This document shows positions 566-34,821 of a stretch of 35,954 nt of DNA, one piece after another. The notes below the pieces were generated by a model. That model was not told the origin of the DNA, made no database searches, and was given only the letters and a program-made list of their open reading frames with translations. Source of the stretch: Enterococcus pallens ATCC BAA-351 (lineage in GTDB: Bacteria; Bacillota; Bacilli; Lactobacillales; Enterococcaceae). Location: assembly GCF_000407485.1 (NCBI RefSeq), contig NZ_ASWD01000010.1:1-35954 (forward strand), in the 5' to 3' direction. The first letter of the stretch is position 1. The number at the start of each line of letters is the position of its first letter. The position numbers were made by a program, and so were the translations under genes.

Positions 566-578
566 AGGAATGGTAATA

Positions 579-2389: not shown

Positions 2390-2405
2390 GTTAGGAGGTG
2401 AAAAG

Positions 2406-2750: not shown

Positions 2751-2785
2751 TCTTCGTCTAAACAAAAAATAATAGGAGGATCAAT

Positions 2786-5397: not shown

Positions 5398-5401
5398 AAG
5401 A

Positions 5402-5608: not shown

Positions 5609-5636
5609 ATACAAAAACCAATCAGGAGGGAAATAA

Positions 5637-6491: not shown

Positions 6492-6505
6492 GAGGTGGAG
6501 AGTAG

Positions 6506-9263: not shown

Positions 9264-9293
9264 CTCCCTCCTTTTTATTTTGGGGTGATGAAG

Positions 9294-11198: not shown

Positions 11199-11213
11199 AA
11201 AGGTGGTAGTAAA

Positions 11214-11870
11214 ATGTTAGACAAGCGAAAAATCATTACTATTTTTGGTGCAGTTCTATTTGTTGCAACTATGGCTTTTGGATTATTCAAATTCCAAAAA
11301 ACAATTGACTCACAAAAGCAACTGATCAGTAAGTTGTCAGAATCTAATCAAGAGTTAAACCAAGTAAACAAAGAGGTTCGAGGGAAATACACAAAGCTTG
11401 TAACACAGAATGCGGAAAGAAAGGGGGAAGAAAACGAAACGTTGCAGCCTGCTGATCCTATTGAGTCGGAAGAACCAGGCTACGAAGAGTTCGAGAAGAT
11501 TGTGAACACTACGTATCAAGAGCTTTACAACTATACTCCTGAAACATATGAGCAGCGCAAGGACAAGGTAAAAAACTATTTGTCTGATGATCTAATGAAG
11601 ACTTATTTTGGTAACAAGGGCACGTTCGGAGACGCTGCGAATAATGAATCGAAATTGACTAAAGCAAGTGTTTACCATGATGAAATGAAAGACAATCAGA
11701 TCCAAGGGATCGTTGTTGCACGTTATGAAAGTAGATATGTCAGTGAATATGCAAGTGGTGAGTTTTTCAAAGGAATGGAGCTTTACGAGATTACTTATGA
11801 TTCAGCAGAAAAGAAATTGACCCACATTCAAAGTTTAGGTAGTGGTTTCACAGGCGATATGCTGAACTAG
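11214..11870 (+). CDS. VirB8/PrgL-like single-pass T4SS protein
   Basis: A short cytoplasmic start (MLDKRK), one membrane segment (about 6-24), a coiled-coil stalk (about 28-65, SKLSESNQELNQVNKEV) and an extracellular domain from about 80. The latter (EFEKIVNTTYQELYNYTPET... MKTYFGN... IVVARYESRYVS... ELYEITYDSAEKKLTHI) has the helix-then-sheet pattern of NTF2-like VirB8 domains and resembles PrgL-type proteins. It would link the channel to the outer face of the membrane. Start ATG follows AAAGGTGGTAGTAAA, 16 bases after the hydrolase stop. Family assignment is by fold pattern and position, since identity in VirB8-like proteins is very low. A second candidate of the same type lies at 12904. 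Confidence 0.75.
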   Translation: MLDKRKIITIFGAVLFVATMAFGLFKFQKTIDSQKQLISKLSESNQELNQVNKEVRGKYTKLVTQNAERKGEENETLQPADPIESEEPGYEEFEKIVNTTYQELYNYTPETYEQRKDKVKNYLSDDLMKTYFGNKGTFGDAANNESKLTKASVYHDEMKDNQIQGIVVARYESRYVSEYASGEFFKGMELYEITYDSAEKKLTHIQSLGSGFTGDMLN

Positions 11871-11881
11871 GAGCGTGTTTG

Positions 11882-12244
11882 ATGAAGAAATCAAGTAAAT
11901 ATATCCTGATTGTCGTATGCAGTCTTATAACGGCAGCAAGCAGCTTAGTTGTTCATATGAGCTATACATTCCATCGTTCGATTTCTATTGAGCTTACAGC
12001 TGACAGCAACAAGACAATTTTCTTTTACCGTGATGATTGTTCAGATTGTAAGAAGGTTTTTCCTATTGTCTATTTTAATCGGATAAGTAACAAGAACGTT
12101 ATTCTTGTGAATATGAATAATCCTACAAATCGAAAGTATATAAGCAAATTCGAATTAAAGTCTGTCCCTACGTTTGCCAAAGGTGACAATCAGTATGTTG
12201 GAATCGACCAGGAACAAGTGAAAAAAATTTTAAGTAGTGAGTAG
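11882..12244 (+). CDS. membrane-anchored thioredoxin-like protein
   Basis: Residues about 8-27 form an N-terminal membrane anchor. The rest looks like a short thioredoxin fold: TIFFYRDDCSDCKKVFPIV, with the redox pair C53 and C56 (CSDC), then VILVNMNN and the cis-proline motif SVPTF. It probably acts outside the membrane as an oxidoreductase for transfer proteins, for example for disulfides in the secreted hydrolases or VirB8-like proteins. Thioredoxin-like genes are common in Gram-positive transfer operons. The frame starts with a TTG at 11879, but ATG 11882 is correctly spaced from AGGAG at 11869-11873, which overlaps the previous stop. The CSDC active site is unusual for the family, so the redox potential cannot be guessed. 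Confidence 0.8.
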   Translation: MKKSSKYILIVVCSLITAASSLVVHMSYTFHRSISIELTADSNKTIFFYRDDCSDCKKVFPIVYFNRISNKNVILVNMNNPTNRKYISKFELKSVPTFAKGDNQYVGIDQEQVKKILSSE

Positions 12245-12252
12245 GTGAAAGT

Positions 12253-12507
12253 ATGGCAAAAAAAACAGTTGAAGAACGAATTAGTAAAAAGAAAACAGAA
12301 ATTGAACAGCTGCAAAAGCGTATTGATGCTGATAACCAAAAATTGAAAAAACTAAAGGGAGAGTTAGAAGTTCTTGAGACAAGTCAAGTGATGACAATAC
12401 TTGAAGACTTCAAAATGTCTCCCGATGAACTAAGAAGTCTTTTAAGGACACAATCATATTCAGCCTTGAAAAACGCTAATACTCAGGTACAATCAAGTCA
12501 ACAATAA
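12253..12507 (+). CDS. DUF4315-like coiled-coil protein, 84 aa
   Basis: The sequence is a heptad-rich helix (EERISKKKTEIEQLQKRIDA to about residue 45) followed by a short helical tail containing MSPDELRSLL. This layout, including the final PDEL motif, matches the DUF4315 family found in Gram-positive conjugative elements. The function of the family is not known. It has no membrane segment and may be a cytoplasmic scaffold that binds other transfer proteins. GTAGGTGAAAGT supplies the ribosome site, and the gene is 8 bases from the thioredoxin-like gene, so it belongs to the same operon. Confidence 0.75.
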   Translation: MAKKTVEERISKKKTEIEQLQKRIDADNQKLKKLKGELEVLETSQVMTILEDFKMSPDELRSLLRTQSYSALKNANTQVQSSQQ

Positions 12508-12524
12508 AGTGAGGAGTTGGCTCA

Positions 12525-12884
12525 TTGATCTGTCTGAGACGTACTATATCCGTATTAATTGCAATCCCTTGTTTACTAATAGGGATTGTGTGTTGGCTAG
12601 TTGGCTTAATTTTTACACTTGCAGGAGTAATTATCAAAAAAATAGGATCATGCTTTTTAGGAGTGTTCTCGCTCGGCGTCATATGTGTGATTGGTTTTTC
12701 AATTCATGAATTATTATCACCTCATACGACTGATGATATGCATGCGATATTTTCAACTATAGGTATTTCTTTAGTAATAATGCTGGCAGTTATTTTTACA
12801 GTTATCTTAGCTGGCAGTGTAAGCATAGTCTTAGTCAAATTGAGTGGTGAGATAATCAGATTACCCAAAAAATTCTGGTACTAA
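12525..12884 (+). CDS. polytopic membrane protein of the transfer operon, TTG start
   Basis: 119 residues with about four hydrophobic segments (7-24, 27-40, 41-60 and 78-105) and a basic C-terminus (RLPKKFWY). No family was recognised. The start is a TTG at 12525, supported by GAGGAG at 12511-12516; no ATG lies near. It stands between the DUF4315-like and second VirB8-like genes without gaps that would allow a separate promoter. It may help assemble the channel in the membrane, but the sequence gives no direct evidence of function. Confidence 0.7.
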   Translation: MICLRRTISVLIAIPCLLIGIVCWLVGLIFTLAGVIIKKIGSCFLGVFSLGVICVIGFSIHELLSPHTTDDMHAIFSTIGISLVIMLAVIFTVILAGSVSIVLVKLSGEIIRLPKKFWY

Positions 12885-12903
12885 TAAGGGAGGTGAAAAT
12901 CTA

Positions 12904-13698
12904 TTGTTCAACAGAAAAAAGTCGTACATGACATTCACGCTGCAAGAAGGGATTTCCTTTCCCCAAGAAGCAATAGAATTATACGAAGCCCTTGCTTTAA
13001 TTGAGCAGGAAAACAAGAAATTACTCGATTCCGGAAATCAAGGTACGGTACAGATCACCCTCTATAACAAAAAGAGACAGATCCAATTGCGGCAAGTTTT
13101 ATCTTTGCCAATCAACAATAAAATTGAGGAAGAAATTGCTCGTTTAATTGATGCAGCAGAAACAACCAATCAACCACAGAAGAAGCAGACGAATTTTAAA
13201 AAAAATTCCGCTGCTTCTTTTTTGTCCAATCGTGGGAAATTATTTAACGTGCTAACCGTGATAAACACGTTTGCAGCTGCTGCAATGATTTTGCTTTTCT
13301 TGTTTAACGACACAAGTAAACCAAACATTCAAACTACTAGCAGTAAAAGTGAATTGACTATTGAAGAAGTTGAGAATTATCAGAATGATCGGCAAGGTAT
13401 TGATTTACTAAGCCGCTTTTTTTTACCTAACTACTATTCGGGAAACAAAGAAAATATCCGAAACTTTTTAGACAACCAAACGTTCAAAAAGTCTGAGGTG
13501 ACAAACGGGCAAGTGCAATCAGTTCTTGCAGAAAAGTTAGTAAAGAAGGGAGACAAATACCAGGTTTCTTATGTGCTGCTTGTTCAAGATGATCAGCAAA
13601 AAAGAAACGTCCGGATCACGTATACGGTAAAAAAGGACAAAGACGCAAAGTATAAATATTTGATTATTACGGAACCAAAAGAAAGCGAATATCCATAA
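12904..13698 (+). CDS. second VirB8/TcpC-like single-pass T4SS protein, TTG start
   Basis: An N-terminal cytoplasmic domain (about 1-100; FTLQEGISFPQEAIELYEAL) is followed by one membrane segment (about 116-136, LFNVLTVINTFAAAAMILLF) and an outer domain of about 110 residues. The outer part (QGIDLLSRFFLPNYYSGNKE... NGQVQSVLAEKLVKKG... NVRITYTVKKD) fits the NTF2-like fold of TcpC/VirB8-type proteins. The start is TTG at 12904 after GGGAGGTGAAAA, an excellent ribosome site. Together with the gene at 11214, the operon seems to encode two VirB8-like subunits, as some Gram-positive systems do. Family placement is based on layout rather than strong identity. Confidence 0.7.
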   Translation: MFNRKKSYMTFTLQEGISFPQEAIELYEALALIEQENKKLLDSGNQGTVQITLYNKKRQIQLRQVLSLPINNKIEEEIARLIDAAETTNQPQKKQTNFKKNSAASFLSNRGKLFNVLTVINTFAAAAMILLFLFNDTSKPNIQTTSSKSELTIEEVENYQNDRQGIDLLSRFFLPNYYSGNKENIRNFLDNQTFKKSEVTNGQVQSVLAEKLVKKGDKYQVSYVLLVQDDQQKRNVRITYTVKKDKDAKYKYLIITEPKESEYP

Positions 13699-13726
13699 AT
13701 CTATTCAGAAAAGGAAGATGAATACA

Positions 13727-14536
13727 ATGAAAAAAATCTTAGTCGTAACCTTGTTTAGCACTTTAATACTAGGAACGTCGGGAGTAACAAGTTTTGCAGC
13801 AGAAGTACAACAGGATCAACCGATAGCTATAGTGCCATTTGAAATTACTGATCCGACTGATCCTTCTGTTCCACCAACGCCCGATCCTGATCCAAACCCA
13901 ACACCAGACCCTGATCCAAATCCTGATCCGAATCCTACGCCGGACCCTGATCCCGATCCTGATCCAAATCCAACACCGGACCCTGATCCCGATCCTGATC
14001 CAGGTCCAACACCAGACCCTGATCCCGATCCTGATCCAGGTCCAACGCCAAACCCTGATCCCGATCCTGATCCGAGTCCAACGCCCGATCCTGATCCGAC
14101 GCCTAAACCTGATCCGACACCAACACCAAAGCCAGATCCAAAACCAGATCCAAAACCTGATCCAACACCGACACCAGGTGACCAAAATGGAAACAAGGGA
14201 AATCAAACAGCTAACAATCCAACACCGTCGCCTGTAAATACCAATCCGACACCCCAAGCACCTGTATTAACAAGCGGAAATCAAACAGTAATTGCAACCG
14301 TAGACGGGAATCCTATTGTGCTGCAAGCCGACGGATCAACTAAAACAGTAACGCCTGAGACAATCGGAGCTAGGGTTCAAAAAGATGGATCACTCGTGAT
14401 CAAAGACAAAGAAGGAAATGAGAAAGTTTTACCTAAAACTGGTGAGAAAACTAGCGGTGCATTAACAACGTTGGGAATGATGATTGTCAGTTTATTTGCG
14501 TTCATTTTGAAACAGAGAAAGGAAGTTTCTGAGTAA
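13727..14536 (+). CDS. LPxTG-anchored Asp-Pro-repeat surface protein, 269 aa
   Basis: Residues 1-25 are a signal peptide ending TSFAAEV. About residues 50-150 are a run of Pro-Asp/Pro-Asn/Pro-Thr dipeptides, expected to be a stiff, extended, negatively charged stalk. A compact region follows (about 170-230; QTVIATVDGNPIVLQADGS). LPKTG at 235-239, a hydrophobic segment and KQRKE form a complete sortase anchor. The frame also offers ATG 13718, but AAGGAAG abuts it and is about 10 bases before ATG 13727. It is the last gene of the secretion operon and could span the wall near the channel or promote cell contact. The sortase at 34853 or a chromosomal sortase A could attach it. Confidence 0.85.
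   Translation: MKKILVVTLFSTLILGTSGVTSFAAEVQQDQPIAIVPFEITDPTDPSVPPTPDPDPNPTPDPDPNPDPNPTPDPDPDPDPNPTPDPDPDPDPGPTPDPDPDPDPGPTPNPDPDPDPSPTPDPDPTPKPDPTPTPKPDPKPDPKPDPTPTPGDQNGNKGNQTANNPTPSPVNTNPTPQAPVLTSGNQTVIATVDGNPIVLQADGSTKTVTPETIGARVQKDGSLVIKDKEGNEKVLPKTGEKTSGALTTLGMMIVSLFAFILKQRKEVSE
13934..14077 (+). repeat. four 36-bp tandem repeats coding the Asp-Pro stalk
   Basis: Four consecutive units of 36 bases begin at 13934, 13970, 14006 and 14042, each containing CCCTGATCCCGATCCTGATC with few changes. They code for PTPDPDPDPDPG-like units. The high similarity at DNA level suggests recent duplication and likely length variation between strains. Shorter GATCC-based repeats extend on both sides. Confidence 0.85.
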
Positions 14537-14572
14537 TGAGTGACTTAGGAATTATCCAGAAAGGAGAAGTTC

Positions 14573-15634
14573 ATGAACGCTGAAAAATCGAATAAAAGTA
14601 AAGAGTTATTGCAGCAAGCAGAAGAGGGAATTAAACAGTTTTTAGAGTCAGATAAGTACAAAGATTTTCTAAAAACGATGTCTCAATTTCACCGGTATAG
14701 TGTAAATAATACGATACTAATCTTTATGCAAAAGCCTGATGCTAGTCATGTTGCAGGCTATCAATCCTGGAAGAAAAAGTTTAATCGTCAAGTTAATAAA
14801 GGCGAAAAATCTATCAAGATCATAGGCGGCAGAGAGTATAAACGAAAAGTCGAAGAAATCGAAAATGGTGTGAAAGTAGAAAAAGAAGTTAAAGGTATTA
14901 GCTTCTTTCCCGTTTCAGTATTTGACGTAAGTCAAACAACCGGTGATCCACTACCCAAGTTGGTCAATGAGTTGCAGCAAGATGTGTCTGACTACAAGAA
15001 TTTGTATCATGCGATTAAGGAAAGTACCGACTTTGACGTATCCTTTGATGATATAAAGTCTGGCGCTAAAGGCTACTGTCGTCCATTAGATAATCAAATT
15101 GTAATCAACAAAGGTATGAGTCAATCACAGACAATCAAGACATTGATACATGAGATCACTCATGCTGATTTACATGCTGACGAATTCAAAAATAATGATG
15201 TAGAAAGGACGACTAAAGAGTCCAAAGAAGTAGAAGCAGAGAGTACAGCTTTTGTCGTTTGCGAACATTATGGAATCGACACGAAAGATTATAGTTTCCC
15301 TTATCTAGCAGCTTGGTCAAGCTCAAAAGAGCTTGAAGAATTGAAGGCTAGTTTTGAAAAAATTCAAAAACAAGCCGATAGTCTAATTCAAAGAATTGAC
15401 ACCAATTTGGAATCAATCCTCAAAGAAAAAGAATTAGAAGTGACGCAGGAAAAAGAGCAGGATTTGAAAGATGTTAAAGTACCGGATATTAGCAAAATGC
15501 CTTTAAGTGAACGGCTAAATTACTTTCAAGAGAAAGCCGATTCGATAAACCAAGTAAGAAAAAAAGACCAAGTTCTTCAGAATCATATTTCCCATTCAGA
15601 GAAAAAAGAAAAGAACAAAGAAGCAGCAAAATAG
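14573..15634 (+). CDS. ArdC-like antirestriction protein (ssDNA-binding + zincin)
   Basis: Expected to protect incoming plasmid DNA from the recipient's restriction enzymes. Residues about 15-130 resemble the ArdC N-terminal single-stranded-DNA-binding domain (QFHRYSVNNTILIFMQKPDASHV... GYQSWKK... VFDVSQT). Residues about 150-265 form a zincin-like metalloprotease: H193-E-I-T-H197 with downstream EVEAESTAFVVCEHYG supplying a further ligand. The tail (about 270-353) is coiled coil and basic, with FQEKADSINQVRKKD, close to the tail of the PcfB-like protein. GAAAGGAGAAGTTC precedes ATG 14573. ArdC genes usually sit close to oriT so they enter the recipient early; the probable oriT lies about 600 bases downstream, which agrees. 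Confidence 0.85.
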   Translation: MNAEKSNKSKELLQQAEEGIKQFLESDKYKDFLKTMSQFHRYSVNNTILIFMQKPDASHVAGYQSWKKKFNRQVNKGEKSIKIIGGREYKRKVEEIENGVKVEKEVKGISFFPVSVFDVSQTTGDPLPKLVNELQQDVSDYKNLYHAIKESTDFDVSFDDIKSGAKGYCRPLDNQIVINKGMSQSQTIKTLIHEITHADLHADEFKNNDVERTTKESKEVEAESTAFVVCEHYGIDTKDYSFPYLAAWSSSKELEELKASFEKIQKQADSLIQRIDTNLESILKEKELEVTQEKEQDLKDVKVPDISKMPLSERLNYFQEKADSINQVRKKDQVLQNHISHSEKKEKNKEAAK

Positions 15635-15720
15635 GCGATTTTGAAGAAGAACAATTAGCTGCTATTTCCGAGAAACCCAAAATAATATTTTTAAATCCGG
15701 CACTACTATTAGGTGAATTT

Positions 15721-15849
15721 ATGTGCCAGATAATGGTCATTCAACAGCAGCAAGAAAATGAGTATAGAAAAAAACTATTCGTTCAGGAAGCAGCTGCTTA
15801 CGAAGAAAAGAAGCTGCTAGAATATTACAGGGAGGAAAGGCAATTATGA
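15721..15849 (+). CDS. small hypothetical protein, 42 aa, translationally coupled
   Basis: ATG 15721 follows TTAGGTGAATTT and the frame (MCQIMVIQQQQENEYRKKLF...) ends in TGA at 15847-15849, overlapping the next gene's ATG by the pattern ATGA. The product is a Gln/Glu/Lys-rich helix. The frame is also open and protein-like upstream to about 15631 (GDFEEEQLAAISEKPK... NPALLLGEF) but has no normal start codon there, so the gene may once have been longer or may be reached by a frameshift from the ArdC gene. No family recognised. Confidence 0.5.
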   Translation: MCQIMVIQQQQENEYRKKLFVQEAAAYEEKKLLEYYREERQL

Positions 15850-16112
15850 AAGTGAGTTTTACACAGCACGAGGTTGAAATTATTAGCAGCCACCTATCAC
15901 TAGCAAAGGAAAAAACAAAAGCAAGCGTGGCGCAAGAAGTCGAAAACATGGTTTCGCTGCTGCAAAGCGAACAAGGCAAACAGTATATTGAAGATGATGA
16001 ACAGCGAGCCTATACGCTTGATCAGTACAAATCGACAGCTGAAAAATTAGCAGAAGTAACAGAAGACGAATTCCAAAAGATTGATCTTTCGTCAGCAGAT
16101 ATGCTGAGGTAA
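15846..16112 (+). CDS. hypothetical protein, 88 aa, downstream of the ArdC-like gene
   Basis: Begins MKVSFTQHEVEIISSHLSLA and is mostly helical and acidic, ending QKIDLSSADMLR. The ribosome site AGGGAGGAAAGG lies inside the preceding small gene, and the start overlaps that gene's stop, so translation is coupled. No signal peptide, membrane segment or known motif was found. It is the last gene before a hairpin and terminator and therefore closes the ArdC transcription unit. Because genes here enter the recipient early or belong to the DNA-processing set, a role in DNA handling is possible but unproven. Confidence 0.65.
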   Translation: MKVSFTQHEVEIISSHLSLAKEKTKASVAQEVENMVSLLQSEQGKQYIEDDEQRAYTLDQYKSTAEKLAEVTEDEFQKIDLSSADMLR

Positions 16113-16130
16113 AAAGAAAAATCACGGGGT

Positions 16131-16191
16131 TTGGGGCGAAGCCCCAAGTATAAAAAAGAAGAGAAGCCAAACCGCTCTCTTCTTTTTTTTT
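16131..16191 (+). terminator. hairpin pair and terminator closing the ArdC unit
   Basis: TTGGGGC-GAA-GCCCCAA (16131-16147) is a perfect 7-bp hairpin. Then AGAAGAGAAGC (16157-16167) pairs, with one bulge, with GCTCTCTTCT (16174-16183), followed by a long T run to 16191. The second element is a classical Rho-independent terminator. The GGGGC hairpin just before it may assist or belong to the transfer origin. Confidence 0.75.
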
Positions 16192-16195
16192 ATGT

Positions 16196-16479
16196 AAGAT
16201 GGTACCATCTTGCAAATCTTGCTATAAGACTTCCTGCCCAAAAACGGCAGGAAGTCCACAGCAAGTTTGATCACTATTGAAAATAGAAAAGAGCAGACAC
16301 CTTACTTTTTTCTTTCGCAGAAAAAAGTAACAAAAAAGAACTCTCACACTCGCCGTGTGGGGGCGTGCCAAACGAATGGAGATTCGTTCAGCAAGCTGGT
16401 AGCGTGAGGGGGCTTGTTTTTAGCCGTCAATTCCTTAAATTCCTTCCCTACGTTCAGTCAGACATTTACCATTGACGGC
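16196..16479. other. probable origin of transfer (oriT): hairpin-rich non-coding region before mobC
   Basis: This gene-free stretch (16113-16532) holds a dense series of inverted repeats: a 16-bp palindrome AAGATGGTACCATCTT (16196-16211); GACTTCCTGCC/GGCAGGAAGTC (16228-16256, 7-base loop); TTACTTTTTTCT/AGAAAAAAGTAA (16302-16330, 5-base loop); CACAC/GTGTG (16345-16359); AACGAAT/ATTCGTT (16371-16388); CAAGC/GCTTG followed by T5 (16392-16421); and GCCGTCAAT/ATTGACGGC (16423-16479). Position directly before mobC and the relaxase is the usual place of oriT in this family. The most oriT-like part is about 16300-16400. The nick site itself cannot be identified by eye. Confidence 0.6.
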
Positions 16480-16532
16480 ACGTCGTAATTACTTCTTTTT
16501 GAAAATAGTTTAATCCGTTAGAAGGTGATACA

Positions 16533-16979
16533 TTGGAGAATCAAGTTGAAAATATACCGGAATTCAATCAGTTAATCATGCAAAAAACGTCCGATGAAGT
16601 TTTAGAAATTGCGAATACGTATGATGATTCAATACGCAGCATTCAAAAAAAATTTAGAGTTTCGGAACGAGAAAACTTTCTGATTCAATATAAAATGAAC
16701 TTATCCAACACGAGAAATTTCACACATTATGCTTGCCGGATGTGTCTTTCTGGAATGACCGTTACAACAGATTTTTCAGACTTACGAGCGTTAACCAGTG
16801 AATTAGGTAGGATAGGGAACAATATAAACCAACTGGCACACAAAGCAAACATGACCAATAACATTGAAAAGGACGATTTCCAATCTTTGAAAAATGAATA
16901 TGATCAGCTGGCAAAATTGGTTAGTGAAGCGTTATTGTACAAGTTGAAACGTGCAAGAGATTTTCAGAGGTACGTTTAG
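16533..16979 (+). CDS. MobC/PcfF-like relaxosome accessory protein, TTG start
   Basis: DNA-binding protein expected to bind oriT and help the relaxase nick. The motif LTSELGRIGNNINQLAHKAN (about 88-107) is the hallmark of the MobC relaxosome family, and the first half (VSERENFLIQYKMNLSN) is compatible with a ribbon-helix-helix domain. No ATG is available near the ribosome site; TTG 16533 with AGAAGGTGATACA upstream is the clear start. The 148-residue length is normal. Its stop codon shares one base with the relaxase GTG (TAGTG, 16977-16981), so the two are translated together. Confidence 0.9.
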   Translation: MENQVENIPEFNQLIMQKTSDEVLEIANTYDDSIRSIQKKFRVSERENFLIQYKMNLSNTRNFTHYACRMCLSGMTVTTDFSDLRALTSELGRIGNNINQLAHKANMTNNIEKDDFQSLKNEYDQLAKLVSEALLYKLKRARDFQRYV

Positions 16980-19276
16980 TGGCAGTCACGACAATTCATC
17001 AGATAAAAAGTACGCTGAAAAAAGCGTTAGACTATATACAAAATCCTGAAAAAACTGACGAGGGATTGCTAGTTAGCAGTTACAATTGTGAAGCTACGCT
17101 TGCCGAAGTAGAAATGGAAATCACACGACAATACGCAAGAGAAGTGAAAGGCGATTATCGAAAGACAGGCGGCAGCGAAGTATTAGCTCACCACCTCATT
17201 CAGAGCTTTTCACCGGAGGATGATGTTTCGCCGGAGCTGGCTCATGAGATCGGAAAGCAGCTTGTAGATGAACTGCTTGGAGGAAAATTCGAATATGTGA
17301 TTTCGACACACGTTGATAAAGATCACATTCACAATCACATCATTTTTAACAGCGTATCCTTTTACGACTTGAAAAAATTTAGAAGTCAGCCTTATAGGAC
17401 AGCAAATCAAATTTTAGAGATCAGCAATCGCCTATGTGCGGAAAATGATTTGTCTATCGCTCCACGCAAGCAGCAGCTGCGCAACTCCTATAAAAACTAT
17501 TCAAGATACAAAAAGAATTCAACGTTTAGGGCTGAGATCAGAAAACGATTAAACATGATTCTTGATGAATCTGTTTCTATGGAAGAATTCAAATCTAAAG
17601 CAGCTGAGCTAAAAATAGACGTTGACGATTCCGGCAAACACATTACTTATTTTTTAGCTGGTGAAGGTCAGAAGCGCAAGACACGAGGAAACAAACTTGA
17701 TGATTTAGAAACGTACACGGAAAAAGGAATTCAAGAACGGGTTGAAGAAAATAAAATCCTTGTCACGCAACTTGAAAAAGCAATCGAGGAATCTTTCTCC
17801 ACCAGCGATAATTTGGAAGATTTTCAGTTTAATTTGCGACAAGATCACGGGATAACTTTTAAAGAGCATAAAAAATTTGGAGTAGTGTTCCAGTTTGATG
17901 ATGTGAATCGTTCGAGTTTAAAAGAGCGAATACTTCCCGATAGTTATCATATTGAAAATCTGAACGGCAACTTTAGAACTGATTACGATTTTTCACAAGA
18001 GAACAGCCTAGAGCCGATTAGCGAACGTTACCGACAACAAGAAAAAAGTAAGATTGAGAATCAAGAAACCCCTATCGTTTTACTTGATGAACAAATCGAG
18101 AAAGTAACCAAAGAAGGTCTACTAATTAATTTAGAATCGCCCGATGCGAACGGTTATATCTTTATCAATAGTAACTTTGTTGATGTAGACAAAACCACCG
18201 GAGACTATACTATTTGGATCGGTGACAAATTTGATTACACGGTTAGGGATCAAAGCGGCGAGGTTTCGGAAAACTACACCTTAAAAGGTGAGGGACTTAT
18301 TCGAGGGCTAGAGTTGGCAAAAGGGATAGAACCGCTGCCGATTTACGTGCATAGCAAGTATATAAAAAGCATTAGTGAACGTGGGCTTTCGCTATCAATG
18401 CCGGACAAAGGGATCGAACGGCTTTTCATTCCTAAAGAGTATGTGGAATATGATCAGATTAGCAAGAATTGCACAGTGAGGATCGGTGAAAATTGGAATT
18501 ACTATGGCAAGCCGACTTTAAAAGAGAATGCGACACAAGAGCAAATAAGGAACAATGCAGCGGTACGTTTTAAAGGTCAAGACGTGATCAGCGAGCTTCA
18601 AAAAGAAAGTAAATATTTGGACGTTCTTATTCAACCAAAAATGAATATGCTACGACATAGAATGCAAAAAATGCACACGTCGGCTTTAGTAGAGACACTA
18701 AATACTTTCAGAGAAGAAAAGATCGAGAAGCCGTCTGATTTAGCTCAAAAGCTTGCAGCGGTTCATAGAGAAAAGGCAGCTGCACAAACGAAGATCGATG
18801 AGATAGAAAAGAAGATCACCAATTATAACAACGTCGCCAAGCTGCTGGTAACTTACGAAAAGTACTTACCAATCGTTAAAGAGATCGACGGTGCCGGATT
18901 TTTGCAAAAAACAAAGTTAGAAAAGCAATATGAGTCGGAGCTGCGGCAATTTAATTTAGCAGAAAAAAAACTCACTGCTACAAATAATTTGAGAATGGAT
19001 ATGCCGAAAGAAAAGATTATTGCGCTTGCTAAAAATCAAGAGCAGCAAAAAAAGCGTCTGATCGACAGCTTTAAATACTATGAGCAGCAGCTTGAAAAAC
19101 TAGAAGATGCGAGATTAGTTCTTGAAGAAGTAACTGGAGATCAGTTAGAAGCAGCAGCTTATGAATACTCAGAGATTGAATCGCTAAGTGATCGCTTAGA
19201 TACATTAGAAAACGAAGCAAAGCAGGAAAATGACGAAAGAGAAGTACAAGAAAAAAGGAATGATCGAGAGAGATAA
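16979..19276 (+). CDS. MOBP-family relaxase (conjugative nickase), GTG start
   Basis: Cuts oriT and stays bound to the 5' end of the transferred strand. The first 200 residues match the relaxase/mobilisation nuclease domain: Y19 in LDYIQNPEKT is the likely nucleophile, and the metal-binding histidine motif is H111-VDKD-H116-I-H118-N-H120. ETYTEKGIQERVEENK and later regions are moderately conserved linker. The last 200 residues are coiled coil (FREEKIEKPSDLAQKLAAVH..., QEQQKKRLIDSFKYYEQQ), likely used for docking on the PcfB/VirD4 proteins. Length 765 aa is slightly long for the group. GTG 16979 overlaps the mobC stop and has CAGAGG upstream. Confidence 0.95.
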   Translation: MAVTTIHQIKSTLKKALDYIQNPEKTDEGLLVSSYNCEATLAEVEMEITRQYAREVKGDYRKTGGSEVLAHHLIQSFSPEDDVSPELAHEIGKQLVDELLGGKFEYVISTHVDKDHIHNHIIFNSVSFYDLKKFRSQPYRTANQILEISNRLCAENDLSIAPRKQQLRNSYKNYSRYKKNSTFRAEIRKRLNMILDESVSMEEFKSKAAELKIDVDDSGKHITYFLAGEGQKRKTRGNKLDDLETYTEKGIQERVEENKILVTQLEKAIEESFSTSDNLEDFQFNLRQDHGITFKEHKKFGVVFQFDDVNRSSLKERILPDSYHIENLNGNFRTDYDFSQENSLEPISERYRQQEKSKIENQETPIVLLDEQIEKVTKEGLLINLESPDANGYIFINSNFVDVDKTTGDYTIWIGDKFDYTVRDQSGEVSENYTLKGEGLIRGLELAKGIEPLPIYVHSKYIKSISERGLSLSMPDKGIERLFIPKEYVEYDQISKNCTVRIGENWNYYGKPTLKENATQEQIRNNAAVRFKGQDVISELQKESKYLDVLIQPKMNMLRHRMQKMHTSALVETLNTFREEKIEKPSDLAQKLAAVHREKAAAQTKIDEIEKKITNYNNVAKLLVTYEKYLPIVKEIDGAGFLQKTKLEKQYESELRQFNLAEKKLTATNNLRMDMPKEKIIALAKNQEQQKKRLIDSFKYYEQQLEKLEDARLVLEEVTGDQLEAAAYEYSEIESLSDRLDTLENEAKQENDEREVQEKRNDRER

Positions 19277-19281
19277 TAGAT

Positions 19282-19338
19282 ACGCCTTAGCGTGTGAGTA
19301 TGCTGCGTTGACACCAGCGGCTGTGATCCTTTTATCAC
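19282..19338. repeat. degenerate copy of the MTTA hairpin array
   Basis: ACGC-CTTA-GCGT (19282-19293) is a hairpin with the CTTA tetraloop, followed by GTGAG, an imperfect GCTG/CAGC hairpin and GTGAT/ATCAC (19323-19338). Order and spacer sequence resemble the longer array at 22499-22610 (there CGC-ATTA-GCG, then TGTGAG). It lies between the relaxase and ssb genes and may be a structured RNA or a DNA-level signal. Confidence 0.5.
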
Positions 19339-19386
19339 GACCATTGAAATTAAAAGATTACTGTTTTATCTAGTTAGGAGGAAATC

Positions 19387-19698
19387 ATGATTAATAATGT
19401 TGTTCTTGTCGGTAGGCTAACCAAAGAGCCGGATATGAAATATTTACCTAACGGTGATCCTGTAACCACGTTTATAATTGCTGTAAACCGTAACTTTAAA
19501 AATCAAAGCGGAGACCGTGACGCCGATTTTATTAACTGTATTATTTGGCGTAATAAGGCAGTAAACTTTGCTGATTTATGCAAGAAAGGAACGTTGATCG
19601 GGATCACTGGGAGGATTCAAACACGAAACTATGAGAACAAAGAAGGACAAAGAGTCTATGTAACCGAGGTTGTTGCTGATGGGTTTCAGCTTCTTTAG
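19387..19698 (+). CDS. ssb: short single-stranded DNA-binding protein
   Basis: OB-fold SSB that would cover single-stranded plasmid DNA during transfer and replication. [41 protein letters not shown] and [21 protein letters not shown] are core SSB motifs. The protein stops at residue 103, directly after the OB core (VVADGFQLL), so the flexible linker and the acidic C-terminal tip (usually ending DDxPF), which recruits partner proteins, are missing. TTAGGAGGAAATC gives a strong start. It stands alone between the relaxase gene and the inverted-repeat cassette. It may be a natural tail-less plasmid SSB or a truncated one; a possible tail-like remnant lies at 22382-22462. Confidence 0.9.
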
Positions 19699-19704
19699 CA
19701 ATAA

Positions 19705-19747
19705 ACACGAACGAAATAGCGACCTGGCACAAGCCGGTAGGCAGTAA
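19705..19747 (+). repeat. divergent third copy of the 51-bp repeat
   Basis: CACGAACGAA at the left, GACCTGG, CCGG and GCAGTAAA in the same order and spacing as in the 51-bp element that follows at 19750. It contains its own small hairpin (CTGGC-ACAA-GCCGG). It shows that the element exists as a tandem, diverged pair next to ssb. Confidence 0.5.
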
Positions 19748-19749
19748 AT

Positions 19750-19800
19750 CACGAACAAACGTCTGACCAGGATCACCGGATCTTGCAGTAAAAACCGAAC
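19750..19800 (+). repeat. 51-bp inverted repeat, left arm (partner 22315-22365)
   Basis: Begins CACGAACAAACGTCTGACC and has the invariant core CAGGATCACCGGATCTTGCA. The reverse complement occurs at 22315-22365 with 46 of 51 positions identical by eye, including 24 in a row. The two arms face each other across about 2.5 kb holding HigBA, two unknown genes, a serine recombinase and the type I toxin locus. Confidence 0.85.
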
Positions 19801-19881
19801 GCGGCTTAAAGACACTTATTGGATATAAAAATCGCAAATGAAATAAGTGGAAAACCAGCAGCTATAAACTAGACCCAATAA

Positions 19882-19919
19882 ACAAAAATGCTCCCCAGCG
19901 GTATCGGATGCTGGGGAGC
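19882..19919 (-). terminator. terminator of the leftward higBA unit
   Basis: GCTCCCCAGC (19890-19899) and GCTGGGGAGC (19910-19919) form a perfect 10-bp stem. Read leftwards it is followed by ATTTTTG, so it ends the higB-higA transcript shortly after the higA stop. Confidence 0.85.
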
Positions 19920-19925
19920 TGCTGC

Positions 19926-20204
19926 TTATTTGAATCCGATTGTTACTTCCTTGCCGACACTTGTTGCAATCTCGTAGAGTACGTTAAAGCTGACGTTCAT
20001 TGATCCATTCTCGATTCGTGCTATCGTACTTTGCGGCTTTCCTACCTTTTCAGCTAGTTCACGTTGTGTCATGCCTAATTCGTCTCTTAATTGAGCGACA
20101 GCAACAGCGACATTAAGTCTTTGTTTTTCTTTTTCAAACTCTGCCGCAAACTGAGGGCTGCTTGCCTTTTTCCGTGCAATTAAATCATTGATGCTGCTTG
20201 TCAT
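19926..20204 (-). CDS. higA: HigA-type antitoxin, XRE family
   Basis: Antitoxin and transcriptional repressor. Residues about 32-85 are a Cro/C1-type helix-turn-helix: LRDELGMTQRELAEKVGKPQ with STIARIENGSMNVSFNVLYE. The N-terminus (SPQFAAEFEKEKQRLNVAV) resembles antitoxins of the HigBA/Gp49 group. It follows the toxin gene, overlapping its end by four bases (20201-20204), which is the usual toxin-first order of HigBA. It should bind and neutralise the toxin and repress the promoter at 20567-20595, which carries a GATAGC/GCTATC palindrome. Confidence 0.9.
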   Translation of the reverse strand: MTSSINDLIARKKASSPQFAAEFEKEKQRLNVAVAVAQLRDELGMTQRELAEKVGKPQSTIARIENGSMNVSFNVLYEIATSVGKEVTIGFK

Positions 20205-20560
20205 TTTAATTCCCCTTTCGCATATTGCTCTCTGATCCGTTTAGCGTGTTCAATCTCTTTTCTAGGTGTCTTCTGCGTCTTCTTAGTAAATCCGTGAGTG
20301 ATCAGGTACTTATTTCCTACTTTTTGGAAATAAATAGCTCGTTGAATGTTATTTCCAACCTTAGAACGCAACTCGTAAAGGTTAGTATCTAATTTTTTAA
20401 CCCACTCCATTCGTTGTGCAACAAGCAATCCAAGCTCTTGTGTTGATTCAATTGTCGCCAGCAGCTTACTAGAATCTTTGCTTGGTAGCGATTCAAGAAA
20501 TTCAACGAATTCACTAGTACCGTCCGGTCTTTCTATAAAACGAAACTCTGGTTTTTCCAT
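20201..20560 (-). CDS. higB: HigB/RelE-type toxin (Gp49-like), probably leaderless
   Basis: Predicted mRNA-cleaving toxin acting at ribosomes. EFRFIERPDGTSEFVEFLES, WVKKLDTNLYELRSKVGNNI and RAIYFQKVGNKYLITHGFTKKTQ match the phage-derived Gp49-like/HigB branch of the RelE superfamily, with the basic and aromatic residues in the C-terminal strands (R93-like KTPRKEIEHAKRI helix at the end). Length 119 aa is typical. The start ATG has no ribosome site: the promoter's predicted first base falls on or next to the ATG, so the mRNA may be leaderless. With HigA it stabilises the plasmid by killing or arresting plasmid-free cells. Confidence 0.9.
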   Translation of the reverse strand: MEKPEFRFIERPDGTSEFVEFLESLPSKDSSKLLATIESTQELGLLVAQRMEWVKKLDTNLYELRSKVGNNIQRAIYFQKVGNKYLITHGFTKKTQKTPRKEIEHAKRIREQYAKGELK

Positions 20561-21862: not shown

Positions 21863-21878
21863 AAATTTTAGCGAAGAA

Positions 21879-21887
21879 TGCTATAAT
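21879..21887 (+). promoter_or_regulatory. extended -10 promoter of the type I toxin
   Basis: TGCTATAAT is a perfect extended -10; no good -35 is needed or seen. The transcript would begin near 21894 and contain the GACGGTGGCTA segment that pairs with the 3' end of the message. Confidence 0.7.
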
Positions 21888-21992
21888 GAATGCAAGACAG
21901 TAAAAGTTTTTTCTAATGACGGTGGCTATCCATTCGAAAGTGAGGTGATGCGTATGTGCGTATCCCAAGAATCTGTAGAAAGGAGATGCCTT

Positions 21993-22097
21993 TTGTCTGT
22001 GGAAGCAGCGTTAGGATTAATGATCAGTTTCGGTTCTCTAATCGCAACTATCATTTTCGGAATCCTGACAATCAGCAAAAACGACAAAAAAAAATAA
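21993..22097 (+). CDS. holin-like type I toxin, 34 aa, TTG start
   Basis: MSVEAALGLMISFGSLIATI... with one hydrophobic helix (about 5-27) and a Lys-rich tail (KNDKKK) is typical of the holin-like toxin family (Hol_Tox) of Gram-positive type I toxin-antitoxin loci; such peptides damage the membrane. TTG 21993 has AAAGGAG seven bases upstream. The same frame is open from ATG 21948 and 21954 behind GAGGTG, which would add 13-15 residues (MCVSQESVERRCL), so the longer form is an alternative. GACGGTGGCTA (21918-21928) is complementary to TAGCCGCCGTC (22146-22156) with one wobble, so the full message can fold 5' to 3' and hide its ribosome sites. An antisense RNA is encoded opposite its 3' part. 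Confidence 0.8.
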   Translation: MSVEAALGLMISFGSLIATIIFGILTISKNDKKK

Positions 22098-24559: not shown

Positions 24560-25618
24560 ATGAGTGAGTTTAAATATTTTAAGTTAGATAGAGTATACAA
24601 TGAGTTGTACTACCAATTCCCAAAAGTTCTCTTAGTAAGCGAGACTTATAAACATTTAGATAGTGATGCAAAAATAGCCTACATGCTTTTTAAATCCAGA
24701 CTAGAATTTGCCGCAAAAAAGAAGCAGGTTGACGAAGAAGGAAATGTCTATTTTACGTTTACACTTGCTGAGCAGCAAAAGATGTTGCAGCGTGGAAAGC
24801 AAAAAGTTCTAAATATCCACGCCCAATTGGAAAAGGCAAATCTGCTTCAAAAGAAAAGTGGCGGTTTTAACAAAGCTGCTGGAAAGAAAAACCCTACTCG
24901 CCTTTACTTAGCCGAGTTAGAAGTAACAGAAAACGACATTTACTTAGTTGAGGAGATCGACCGGACAGGGGACGAGCAGCAAGAAAACGTTGATTTACCG
25001 CATGGTATGAAATTCATACCTAGGGAAGACGAAGAAAAAAACGCTGAAACCCTTGCGGCTCATGATGGTATGAATTTCATACCTACCTCAAACGTTGATT
25101 TACCGCATGGTATGAAAAACGGACAAGAACTATATAATAATAACTTAAACAATAAAGACACTAAAAGACTCTCAAAAGACGAGGAAAAATCCTTACAGGA
25201 TAAATTGCTGTTAGAAGATTTTGCAGAATCCATGATCGCTGGAAATAAGACGTTTCTACCAAGCAAAGTTTTAACACTGCTCGCTTCATTTTCGCATGGA
25301 GAGTTTGAGACAGCAGCTAATTACATGAAGGCGATTCATAATGCAAAAGCGAATGCTGAAAAGCTAGAGGATTACCATTTCATGTATGAGGATGTAGAGG
25401 AAAAATATGGAATCGACATTGATAACTTGATCTATTTCAAAACTAAGAAAGCGATATTCAAAGAAAAGGATGAAAAAATACGGAACATGGATAACCTCAT
25501 TTTCCGTTACCTCACTGATTTGTTTCAAGATATTATCCGGCAAATCAAAGCAACCGAGGAAGCACCGGCGGCACCAGAGGTTGAGGTATCGCTGCACAAC
25601 TGGTTAGAAGGCGACTAG
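24560..25618 (+). CDS. repA: RepA_N-family replication initiator
   Basis: Initiates theta replication. FKYFKLDRVYNELYYQFPKV, SDAKIAYMLFKSRLEFA and GKQKVLNIHAQLEKANLLQ (about 3-105) are the conserved N-terminal winged-helix domain of RepA_N initiators of enterococcal, staphylococcal and lactobacillus plasmids. A variable middle (about 135-215) contains DNA repeats that look like the origin. The C-terminal domain (about 215-352) is helical (SKVLTLLASFSHGEFETAAN... NLIFRYLTDLFQDIIRQI) and, as known for the family, host-specific. 352 aa is normal. AAAGAGGT precedes ATG 24560. Confidence 0.95.
   Translation: MSEFKYFKLDRVYNELYYQFPKVLLVSETYKHLDSDAKIAYMLFKSRLEFAAKKKQVDEEGNVYFTFTLAEQQKMLQRGKQKVLNIHAQLEKANLLQKKSGGFNKAAGKKNPTRLYLAELEVTENDIYLVEEIDRTGDEQQENVDLPHGMKFIPREDEEKNAETLAAHDGMNFIPTSNVDLPHGMKNGQELYNNNLNNKDTKRLSKDEEKSLQDKLLLEDFAESMIAGNKTFLPSKVLTLLASFSHGEFETAANYMKAIHNAKANAEKLEDYHFMYEDVEEKYGIDIDNLIYFKTKKAIFKEKDEKIRNMDNLIFRYLTDLFQDIIRQIKATEEAPAAPEVEVSLHNWLEGD
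24985..25117 (+). other. probable replication origin inside repA (iterons and palindromes)
   Basis: A perfect 28-bp repeat (AAACGTTGATTTACC + GCATGGTATGAAA) occurs at 24985-25012 and 25090-25117. Two palindromes, GGTATGAAATTCATACC (25004-25020) and GGTATGAATTTCATACC (25067-25083), overlap and separate the copies; GGTATGA thus occurs three times. RepA_N plasmids are known to carry oriV in the variable middle of repA, and this is exactly that place. The protein tolerates the repeats as VDLPHGMK. Confidence 0.85.
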
Positions 25619-26606: not shown

Positions 26607-26662
26607 CGAAAAGAGGGGGGACGTGGTATATAACTACGTCCCCCCTCTTTTCGTTTTTTTTT
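26607..26662 (+). terminator. very strong terminator with 18-bp perfect stem
   Basis: CGAAAAGAGGGGGGACGT (26607-26624) and ACGTCCCCCCTCTTTTCG (26636-26653) are perfectly complementary, followed by nine T residues. No gene on the plus strand ends near it: the last one stopped at 25835. It therefore terminates a non-coding transcript (promoters at 25894 or 26121) or insulates the downstream gene. On the other strand it has no U-run. Confidence 0.9.
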
Positions 26663-26777: not shown

Positions 26778-26841
26778 GCTTAATAACAAGTGTTTTTCAT
26801 AAAGCTTTATCACTAAAAAGGATTTGAAGGGAGCGGAAAGA

Positions 26842-27189
26842 ATGATCACTCGGAAAATTAGTATTGAAGATATTGGCTATTATGGCTGCCGAGTTACTGT
26901 TTTTGACGAGCTAAAACAATCAATTGATTTAGGTGATCGAAAACAGAAACGCTGGTTTACTGCACACTATCGGATCAAAGGGTTGCAGGCAGAACGTCTG
27001 CAAGAACATTATGTTGCTAAAAAAAAGCAGGTAGTGGTAACTGAAACAGTCTCAATAAAAGAAATCTATCCAAGGATTAAACATGTTAACGATGCGGATG
27101 GGGTGCTGATTGCTCGAAGAATTGCGCCTAATCGACCACTACTGGTTACAGCAAAAGGCATGAGTAAATTTTTAGTCATGGAACAGTAA
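26842..27189 (+). CDS. hypothetical basic protein, 115 aa
   Basis: MITRKISIEDIGYYGCRVTV... looks like a small beta-rich domain with many basic residues (RKQKRWFTAHYRIKGLQAER; AKKKQVVVTETVSIKEIYPR). No membrane segment or signal. The open frame begins with a TTG at 26824, but ATG 26842 has GGGAG eight bases upstream. It stands alone between a very strong terminator and the large RNA candidate at 27200, only 10 bases after its stop. The basic charge fits nucleic-acid binding, and a link with the RNA elements on both sides is possible, but this is inference. I recognise no family. Confidence 0.65.
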   Translation: MITRKISIEDIGYYGCRVTVFDELKQSIDLGDRKQKRWFTAHYRIKGLQAERLQEHYVAKKKQVVVTETVSIKEIYPRIKHVNDADGVLIARRIAPNRPLLVTAKGMSKFLVMEQ

Positions 27190-27199
27190 ATAATTCAAT

Positions 27200-27709
27200 A
27201 CTTCTCTTTTTTCGCTTGCTTGAAAATGTTGTGGATCAAGCAAGTAACTTGAAGAGTCAGCGGCAGCAGCTAGTAAGGCTATAAGTTGTCAAAGTCTTGG
27301 CGAATGAGTCGAGAACCTGGGCAGCTTTTGATAGGTGGTATCAGAAAAGATTGGTCACACTAAGCGAACACTAATTGTGAAAGTTGATGAAATGAATGGC
27401 TGCACTAAAAGTAGTCAGTAAACAATCAAGGGCATTGTTTGAAGAAGCAATCAATAGCACCTAGGGGTATCAGAGCAGCTACTAAGGTTCCTAGGTTTTG
27501 ACGCACACTTGGAGAAAGACCAAGCTGGCTTTTCGTAATGGGGAAGCGCATAAGCAGTAATGCTATGTCGTGAGCTGCAATACATATAGGCACTTGCCTT
27601 TTCGGGAACGAATCGGCATTTACCGCTGTCTATTAGAGTTTCTGGTTACGGACGCTATAAACCAGTCGGGTAAGGTGATTACTTTTTTAGTAAGCGAAAA
27701 AAGAGAAGT
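27200..27709 (+). ncRNA. large structured RNA candidate, about 510 nt (ROOL-like)
   Basis: An 18-bp perfect inverted repeat, ACTTCTCTTTTTTCGCTT (27200-27217) and its complement (27692-27709), brackets a gene-free stretch full of local helices: CTTGCTTGA/TCAAGCAAG (27215-27244), AACAAT/ATTGTT (27421-27439), ACCTAGG/CCTAGGT (27459-27496), CTTGG/CCAAG (27508-27524), a hairpin with GTAA (GNRA) loop (27549-27567) and CTGGTT/AACCAG (27642-27665). The GNRA loop is valid only in the plus orientation. Size, closing helix and setting on a Lactobacillales plasmid resemble ROOL, a class of large ornate RNAs (about 500-600 nt) known from Firmicutes phages and plasmids, including a lactobacillus megaplasmid. 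I cannot check the consensus, and a clear promoter was not found. Confidence 0.6.
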
Positions 27710-27776
27710 TATTAAACAGTGAGTGGAGTATATTCTTTGCTGCATGAATTGTAAGTATAGAAGGAGGAATGGATCT

Positions 27777-28370
27777 GTGAAGATTTTAGTGTTAACAAAA
27801 AATGTACTTGCTGAAAAGGAAATACAGCAGCAATTGCAAGAGTTGGATCACGAGGTTTTTTGTTCAAGTAGCCTGTTTTACAAATTGATGAACGGGCAGG
27901 AAATCAAGGCTATTGAATACATCTTTGATACAGTGATACCAGGAGTCACAATCACCAATTTAGAAGTAGAAAAGCTTGGAGAATTGATTGGTGGGATACA
28001 GCTGGAACAAGTGCCTATTGGACTATCGAAGGATCAGCTAAGGGAAAAATTGTATTTAGCCGAAAAAGAGGCAAAAGCTGGTCAAGCAGATGAATCAGCA
28101 GAACAAACAGAATTAGTTCAAGATCGATTCATGAAACATTTAAGTAAAAATGAAAGTATCTTGTTTCAATTGCTCTTAGCCAATAAAGGAGTACCTGTTT
28201 CACGAGAAGAAAGTTGTCGGGTATTGTGGGAGTGTGAGCCGACAAACTCTTGTTTGTCACAACTTTCTTCTCTGAGCAAACGTCTGCGACAGAAAGCAGA
28301 TGAATGTAAGGTTGGTTATTCTATTCAATCGTTGTGGGGTAAAGGCTACGTGCTGAATGCACACCGATGA
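27777..28370 (+). CDS. OmpR-type winged-helix regulator, 197 aa
   Basis: Residues about 1-95 resemble a degenerate receiver domain: it opens MKILVLTKNVLAEKEIQQQL and lacks the usual acidic pocket and phospho-Asp, so it is probably not phosphorylated. Residues about 115-197 are an OmpR/PhoB-type winged helix (FMKHLSKNESILFQLLLANK... VSREESCRVLWE... LSSLSKRLRQKADECKVGYS then IQSLWGKGYVL). The frame is open from 27723, but GTG 27777 has AAGGAGGA nine bases before it and starts the domain naturally. It lies before the surface-protein operon and may control it through the TCARAATCGACC repeats. Related regulators of this form precede adhesin genes in enterococci and streptococci. Confidence 0.85.
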   Translation: MKILVLTKNVLAEKEIQQQLQELDHEVFCSSSLFYKLMNGQEIKAIEYIFDTVIPGVTITNLEVEKLGELIGGIQLEQVPIGLSKDQLREKLYLAEKEAKAGQADESAEQTELVQDRFMKHLSKNESILFQLLLANKGVPVSREESCRVLWECEPTNSCLSQLSSLSKRLRQKADECKVGYSIQSLWGKGYVLNAHR

Positions 28371-31024: not shown

Positions 31025-31048
31025 AACTAAATAAGATTGATGATAGGA

Positions 31049-31078
31049 GACCAAGAATATTGATTCTTGGTCTTTTTT
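31049..31078 (+). terminator. terminator of the DUF5648 operon
   Basis: GACCAAGAAT (31049-31058) and ATTCTTGGTC (31063-31072) form a perfect 10-bp stem with loop ATTG and are followed by T6. Confidence 0.9.
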
Positions 31079-31130: not shown

Positions 31131-31153
31131 TGTAAATCGGTACAATTGTCAGG

Positions 31154-31183
31154 TGGAAGGAACTGTCTTTCCATCTTTTTTTT
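31154..31183 (+). terminator. terminator or attenuator before the adhesin
   Basis: TGGAAGG (31154-31160) pairs with CTTTCCA (31167-31173) with one wobble around AACTGT, followed by TCTTTTTTTT. It lies only 27 bases before the adhesin start and would stop transcription from upstream, so the adhesin needs a promoter between or regulated read-through. Confidence 0.7.
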
Positions 31184-34788: not shown

Positions 34789-34821
34789 TTAAGCGTCCTT
34801 TAAACAGGGCGCTTAATTCTT
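34789..34821 (+). terminator. hairpin terminator after the adhesin
   Basis: TTAAGCGTCC (34789-34798) pairs with GGGCGCTTAA (34807-34816) with one wobble; ATTCTT follows. The short T-run makes it moderate, allowing some expression of the sortase from the adhesin message. Confidence 0.6.

Follow-up and report, generated by a model that had tools for sequence, protein, structure and literature searches.

What does a stretch of some 510 bases do that lacks a plausible gene, is closed by a long inverted repeat, and lies ahead of a long run of surface-protein and transfer genes on an enterococcal plasmid? The present study analyzes such a stretch at positions 27200–27709 (plus strand) of contig NZ_ASWD01000010.1 of Enterococcus pallens ATCC BAA-351; the window analyzed is the entire contig, 35,954 bases. 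An earlier note on this DNA had proposed a large ornate RNA of the ROOL type with an unknown basic protein as neighbor. A real RNA, conserved and highly structured, is indeed encoded on the plus strand; the feature is far beyond chance, and its boundaries are accurate to a few bases. The basic protein upstream exists and is its partner, a member of the TraE family. Together, traE and the RNA probably constitute a single bipartite system for processive antitermination, of the conAn type, that heads the conjugation operon. A conAn-like role is the best explanation because protein homology, a like RNA, gene order, and place all point to it, and from these we infer antitermination by the enterococcal copy and the molecular contacts that it would involve.

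A conserved structured RNA and its strand

The RNA starts 10 nucleotides (nt) past the traE stop codon and is closed by a helix with its 5′ arm at 27200–27226 and its 3′ arm at 27683–27709, both on the plus strand. The perfect inverted repeat of 18 base pairs (bp) first noticed there is present and even longer, extending to 27 positions that are 89% complementary (26 of 27 paired when G-U is included), and 15 of the 27 helix pairs have changed on both sides. A repeat search with seed 9 and a length of at least 12 reported no other inverted repeat within 26800–28200. No open reading frame (ORF) of at least 60 amino acids (aa) overlaps the stretch, as the claim of about 510 bases without a plausible gene would have it, and the longest plus-strand open frame inside it has 49 aa from stop to stop. 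Compared with dinucleotide shuffles the stretch folds with z-scores of −4.0 (plus strand) and −6.1 (minus strand), and none of 100 shuffles was as good on either. Because both strands fold better than shuffles, energy is no guide to the strand, and folding energy by itself decides neither strand nor function.

Stronger evidence comes from relatives. Searches with blastn found similar RNAs on 610 of 72,556 plasmid records, 609 of these from Enterococcus, and many of the listed records derive from human isolates. Alignment of 15 sequences including that of the window (507–580 nt, 641 columns) gave a structure of nine helices and 71 pairs in which 96.5% of cells are standard pairs, as against 45–50% when partners were slid by 1–3 columns, and in which 44 of the 71 pairs have changed on both sides, as against 7–13 in the slid versions. 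The covariation score was reached by none of 500 shuffles and the count of pair types by one of 500, so that covariation as well as stability bears out the earlier impression of a density of structure unlikely by chance. The 71-pair structure and that of hairpin II, described below, were derived from the same sequences and are for that reason favored over slid versions; both-side changes are the stronger evidence, although many are common to relatives and represent fewer events than cells.

Local helices had been predicted within the stretch, and the consensus has eight beyond the closing one, seven of them with both-side changes. Core hairpin I (27459–27496, plus strand) has a stem of 27459–27467 with 27488–27496 around a conserved loop (AUCAGAGCAGCUACUAAGG), with eight of nine pairs changed on both sides and 99.3% of cells paired. 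A hairpin at 27529–27546 (plus strand) pairs 27529–27534 with 27541–27546 around a conserved GUAAUG, five of its six pairs having changed on both sides, and a helix at 27586–27633 (plus strand) pairs 27586–27591 with 27628–27633 in 100% of cells, with four of six pairs so changed. Core hairpin II (27629–27671, plus strand) combines a stem of 27642–27647 with 27660–27665 and a pseudoknot of 27637–27639 with 27654–27656, and is common to the RNAs of pCF10, pLS20, and Listeria plasmids.

The strand may be read from the kinds of pairs. In ten sequences, the 15 relatives minus five near-duplicates, the 75 consensus pairs first predicted comprised 622 Watson-Crick, 90 G-U, 8 A-C, and 21 other cells. 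G-U on one strand reads as A-C on the other, and because G-U far exceeds A-C the plus strand is the folding strand; RNAalifold on all 15 sequences gave −79.5 for plus and −54.8 for minus. Structure and strand are in this respect direct observations, and the earlier reading of a large structured plus-strand RNA on a plasmid that looks conjugative, with transfer genes, holds. The inverted repeats might instead act as DNA, in an origin, a centromere, or an origin of transfer, and the nearness of repA and the good folding of both strands would suit such an element, but the 90 G-U against 8 A-C cells, the conserved loop sequences, and the finding of hairpin II on none of 45 reverse strands make this hardly credible. 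A DNA element was rejected on the excess of G-U over A-C at consensus pairs.

The identity first proposed did not survive. The size of about 500 nt and the closing helix would suit a free-standing ornate RNA of the ROOL or GOLLD type, which forms multimers, but the suggested Infernal cmscan with these models gave no match to either in the whole window at gathering thresholds, where only RF01691 and RF01492 were found, both elsewhere, and none in a permissive scan of the RNA to E = 10, which returned two weak microRNA models far under their cut-offs. On this ground ROOL and GOLLD were rejected. Nor did Rfam models match the homologous RNAs when nine loci, 7 kb of pLS20, and 6 kb of pCF10 were scanned; the sole match in those sequences was Anti-Q, on the opposite strand and outside the RNA. 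The terminator scan showed no site resembling a terminator on the plus strand where the RNA ends; because of this, and because in the annotated loci that were inspected it lies between a TraE/PrgR-type gene and surface or other plasmid genes, the RNA is apparently not free-standing. A free-standing small RNA was rejected for want of that site. With a constant partner gene as well, a ROOL-like RNA has next to no probability here, and the RNA offers Rfam a family absent from it.

The TraE-family partner and a common hairpin

The traE gene (26842–27189, plus strand) encodes 115 aa from an ATG and is listed as 121 aa from a TTG at 26824. Its product matches NCBIfam NF041439, TraE_Enteroc, with E 5.3e-37 and 126.3 bits, above the curated cut-off of 100. 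TraE_Enteroc is the family of TraE1, the regulator of pAD1, and from homology to PrgR and ConAn1 we propose a ConAn1-like processivity protein. By tblastn TraE occurs in 622 of the 72,556 plasmid records, near the 610 with the RNA, a comparison of totals and not of individual records. Among genomes, TraE_Enteroc was found in 21 of 395 of the order, 18 of them in the same family, while an alignment search with TraE found it in 2 of 398, its own and one of the same family. An iterated profile extended the relatives to loci from other genera, where the sequence following the gene is conserved inside each group and, in part, from group to group. Single-sequence AlphaFold2 prediction of TraE gave a mean predicted local distance difference test score of 34, a profile search of solved structures gave nothing usable (best E 1.4), PHROGs held no family for TraE, ConAn1, or PrgR, and relatives of two TraE proteins were not found in viral contigs. 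Two loci (L020, L021) have a tandem pair of TraE-family genes ahead of one RNA.

The association of RNA and gene is also observed directly. Directly after the RNA lies a gene for a winged-helix regulator (27723–28370), and since the RNA ends just ahead of it a cis-regulatory leader of that gene only, resembling a riboswitch or attenuator, might be considered. However, the next gene differs among plasmids (DUF5406, SEC10/PgrA surface exclusion, hypothetical proteins) while the RNA and the TraE-family gene stay paired, and with no terminator-like site in the scan at the 3′ end of the RNA such a leader is very improbable. E. faecium plasmids have the order repA, traE, RNA, then DUF5406 or hypothetical genes, sortase, and surface genes. 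A second, diverged unit of TraE and RNA is found in the same genome as the window (contig C9, 56095–56957, minus strand).

Two records named as Listeria phages, OR847180 (L006) and OR849540, carry a similar RNA, and the one whose record was read is from wastewater. L006 also has a gene for a TraE protein, and the score of its hairpin II resembles that of the E. faecium form, an indication that these records may contain enterococcal plasmid DNA.

Hairpin II allowed the association to be approached from the RNA side. With model R1, which represents enterococcal-type hairpins and had the window sequence in its training set, hairpin II of the window scores 57.3 bits. In 22 sequences including pCF10, pTEF2, and pLS20, 96.3% of its cells pair, as against 34–51% when slid, with both-side changes in five of six stem pairs and one of three pseudoknot pairs; of 21 distinct rows, 16 have A-U and 4 have G-C at the varying pseudoknot pair. 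A pattern for hairpin II, written after the sequences were seen, was found with its stem in 36 of 45 regions downstream of TraE-family genes, a set that includes near-duplicates and two regions after the first of tandem TraE copies; in 20 single-base shuffles it was found on average in 0.2 and at most in 2 of the 45 regions (6 rounds of such shuffles were used for closing helices and 10 for the Bacillus and Listeria loci). With one match tallied per region, the corresponding pseudoknot pair was A-U in 22 and G-C in 14 of the 36, and never A-C or G-U, which the pattern allowed. The G-C form is common to close relatives and so represents few events, to which the presence of both forms within single Listeria RNAs adds another.

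Among 103 genomes of the family, R1 matched 31 places in 25 genomes and TraE_Enteroc was found in 23; 19 genomes had both, 6 had R1 only, and 4 had TraE only (hypergeometric P 5e-12). In 299 genomes of the class R1 matched one, that of the window itself. When ORFs to 1,200 nt were examined, a TraE-family ORF lay 124–546 nt upstream on the same strand at 28 of 30 fetched hairpin loci, 21 of which had served the protein profile or the RNA model; at loci used for neither, such an ORF was upstream in 7 of 9.

Pheromone plasmids hold the same unit. In the literature (PMC10740520) TraE1 figures as the key positive regulator of pAD1, and a pAD1-type plasmid has the order traB, a traC-like gene, traA, iad, traE, RNA, and surface exclusion. 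PrgR of pCF10 (8745–9125) matches the TraE profile with 33 bits in a two-sequence database, and the stretch after its stop codon, 9134–9570, is closed by a helix with 33 of 35 pairs and contains hairpin II at 9467–9509 (37 bits with R1, which was built without pCF10). The annotated prgS ORF of pCF10 (9176–9397) sits inside this RNA. A diverged PrgR-type E. faecium plasmid (L075, 39.5% by tblastn) keeps the RNA, with 35 of 36 closing pairs and a hairpin II of 39 bits, and does not keep the prgS frame; on the basis of this one diverged relative, prgS probably does not encode a protein and belongs to the RNA instead, so that an annotated gene is suggested to be non-coding.

The protein homology extends to Bacillus and Listeria plasmids. 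In the literature, ConAn1 is ORF28 of pLS20, an anti-termination factor (PMC11730352), and conAn2 is the RNA that exerts antitermination with ConAn1 as processivity factor (PMC8955417, 2022, by the conAn authors). In our assignment ConAn1 is the 172-aa ORF at pLS20 2564–3082, the first plus-strand ORF annotated after a helix-turn-helix gene. Its homology to TraE is observed directly: it matches the TraE profile with 34.7 bits, hhalign of that profile, PrgR included, with ConAn1 gives 97.1% and E 6.3e-11, and among 18,950 NCBIfam models TraE_Enteroc alone was listed to E 0.1, with 3.4e-4 and a score under the cut-off of that model. As hmmsearch E-values here are for very small databases, bits are the better guide, at 33–35 for ConAn1 and PrgR and 12 to 51 for six Bacillus and Listeria proteins. 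Starting 11 nt past the ConAn1 stop codon, pLS20 3094–3373 (280 nt) is closed by 25 of 25 pairs and contains hairpin II, whose bare pattern occurs once in 50 kb of pLS20 with 0.04 expected. The same layout is found in B. velezensis (L070), B. altitudinis (L072), and Listeria (L073 and L074), and in L071 hairpin II is present, the gene is shorter, and no closing helix was found. Both Listeria RNAs hold two copies of hairpin II, at 4320 and 4574 in L073 and at 4312 and 4542 in L074, in the forms AGG/GCC (G-C) and AGA/GCU (A-U). Layout and hairpin common to these RNAs are observations, and the RNA link to Bacillus and Listeria rests on motif, place, and partner.

Probable antitermination ahead of the transfer genes

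For conAn, PMC8955417 describes that only polymerases from the main conjugation promoter are loaded and that more than 20 terminators are passed; the parts of conAn reportedly differ in host range (PMC8955417). By analogy, the enterococcal TraE protein would join the elongation complex through the RNA and keep it modified over long distances, and the modified polymerase would pass the intrinsic terminators that it meets among the surface-protein and transfer genes downstream, which lie on the same strand round the plasmid, while polymerases initiating elsewhere would stop at them. Loading via its own nascent RNA obliges such a factor to act in cis and in a single orientation, with an effect that reaches over a long distance. 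This agrees with the title of Chung and Dunny 1992, by which positive control of pCF10 reportedly is cis-acting, orientation-dependent, and effective over long distance, and for which no explanation was found in the literature consulted; the RNA here may well correspond to that pCF10-type element. More broadly, we consider it probable that in pheromone plasmids and enterococcal RepA_N plasmids the transfer operons are run by one RNA-plus-protein processive antiterminator, with TraE1 and PrgR as elongation-complex factors, not classical activators, prgS as part of the RNA and not a gene, the RNA as the cis-acting, orientation-dependent element over more than 10 kb, and pseudoknotted hairpin II as the active core common with Bacillus and Listeria plasmids. 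Since the RNA is conserved, has a defined core, and keeps a constant protein partner, the question of cis control can be put to the test. No enterococcal conAn RNA was found in titles and abstract openings of the literature searched, a search that did not extend to the original 2021 conAn paper.

Alternatively, the RNA could act post-transcriptionally with the ribosome to switch on translation of transfer genes, as once proposed for the QL RNA of pCF10. Helices like those of ribosomal RNA are mentioned for the pCF10 intergenic region in one paper (PMC8265641), and a review names both transcription and translation (PMC6540685). But QL and the intergenic region are located in the prgQ–prgR interval and thus precede the RNA considered here, homology to ConAn1, from a system with reported antitermination, points to the elongation complex, and the reported cis action and orientation dependence fit a polymerase-bound factor better; a ribosomal role is unlikely.

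Terminators around the unit are consistent with antitermination in part. Downstream, between co-directional genes on the plus strand, the terminator scan found a hairpin with a 14-bp stem at 31045–31076 and one with an 11-bp stem followed by TTTTTTTT at 31151–31176, and another with an 11-bp stem at 34789–34816 between the adhesin and sortase genes. These three terminator-like sites may be what an antitermination system would need to pass. Upstream of traE is an intrinsic terminator at 26607–26653 (plus strand) with a 21-bp stem and a tail of nine T, which could be a leader attenuator or an end-of-unit terminator; in a related contig (L052) one-sided changes of G-U type leave the 21-bp stem intact. 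Strong terminators likewise lie upstream of traE or prgR in three other loci (L012, L054, L060) and in pCF10, which fits attenuation as described for pAD1, and the same scan found no upstream terminator with a stem of at least 14 in seven loci (L004, L005, L013, L014, L053, L056, L057). In pLS20 a long-stem resistant terminator reportedly marks the operon end, and the terminator at 26607–26653 might be a parallel to it.

Several findings weigh against an antiterminator common to these plasmids. Positions 1–20000, where the type IV secretion genes lie, hold 20 terminator-like sites on both strands together, hardly above the 14.5 in shuffles, and few of them are convincing. Among 36 downstream entries, taken from 65 profile hits minus those with the same first 300 bases or less than 500 bases of sequence, the closing helix was unrecognised in 11; two of these come after a TraE gene that is the first of a tandem pair, and in six (L024, L026, L027, L028, L032, L043) hairpin II and, by eye, hairpin I are retained. 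The strict hairpin II pattern is missing in 9 of the 45 downstream regions, one of the 21 distinct rows has the varying pseudoknot pair broken, 4 of the 23 genomes with TraE lack an R1 match, and 2 of the 30 hairpin loci (L087, L096) lack a TraE-family ORF upstream. The TraE profile did not report the PrgR relative of L075, and R1 is not significant on the Bacillus and Listeria RNAs, that of pLS20 included. Finally, the RNA here has almost double the length of the pLS20 RNA (510 against 280 nt), and the protein, with 115 against 172 aa, is without the C-terminal part of ConAn1.

The plasmid itself codes, mostly from its plus strand, for type IV secretion, a relaxase, ParA, RepA_N, surface proteins, and a sortase, and co-directional surface, type IV secretion, and relaxase genes form a long run after the traE-RNA unit, round the plasmid. 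Because an open frame, for a protein that would have 50 residues, runs over the ends of the contig (35954 to 1), the contig is probably circular and probably a complete plasmid. The RepA_N replication initiator gene (24560–25618, plus strand, Pfam RepA_N E 5e-25) lies upstream of the RNA and is a frequent neighbor, with repA upstream of traE in eight other loci (L004, L005, L013, L014, L053, L056, L057, L059). Of the two Rfam matches in the window, RF01691, Bacillus-plasmid RNA (16414–16479, minus strand, 51 bits), lies shortly before genes leading into the relaxase, and RF01492, the Listeria small RNA rli28 (21872–22068, plus strand, 46.8 bits against a cut-off of 45), is 3′ of an ORF that by eye resembles a recombinase. 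Two small overlapping ORFs at 19926–20560 (minus strand) resemble, as judged by eye, a HigB/RelE-type toxin and a helix-turn-helix antitoxin.

Comparison with known systems

ROOL RNAs have a long closing helix, as does the RNA at 27200–27709, and ROOL and GOLLD share its length class of about 500 nt; the RNA here differs in having no match to their covariance models and in apparently not being free-standing. The EAR RNA belongs to Rfam, whereas no Rfam family matches the RNA here, which differs from EAR and put also in having a protein partner. EAR, of eps operons in bacilli, and put, of phage HK022, are alike to it as RNAs that modify the elongation complex of a long operon, according to PMC8955417. 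The canT RNA of Tn916, likened here by description, is an RNA for processive antitermination of conjugation genes (PMC11658703).

The TraE1 region of pAD1-type plasmids and prgR-prgS of pCF10 share with the window a TraE/PrgR-family gene, an RNA of the same family, and surface-exclusion and adhesin genes. They differ in that Anti-Q RNA is matched there and unmatched in the window; TraE1 and PrgR have an established role as positive regulators, and that the RNA is a second component is the proposal made here. In conAn of pLS20 a homologous protein gene likewise stands at the start of the conjugation genes, and the stretch directly after it has a long closing helix and contains pseudoknotted hairpin II as here; apart from the lengths given above, the enterococcal unit differs in its conserved hairpin I, unrecognised in pLS20, and in residing on a RepA_N plasmid of Enterococcaceae.
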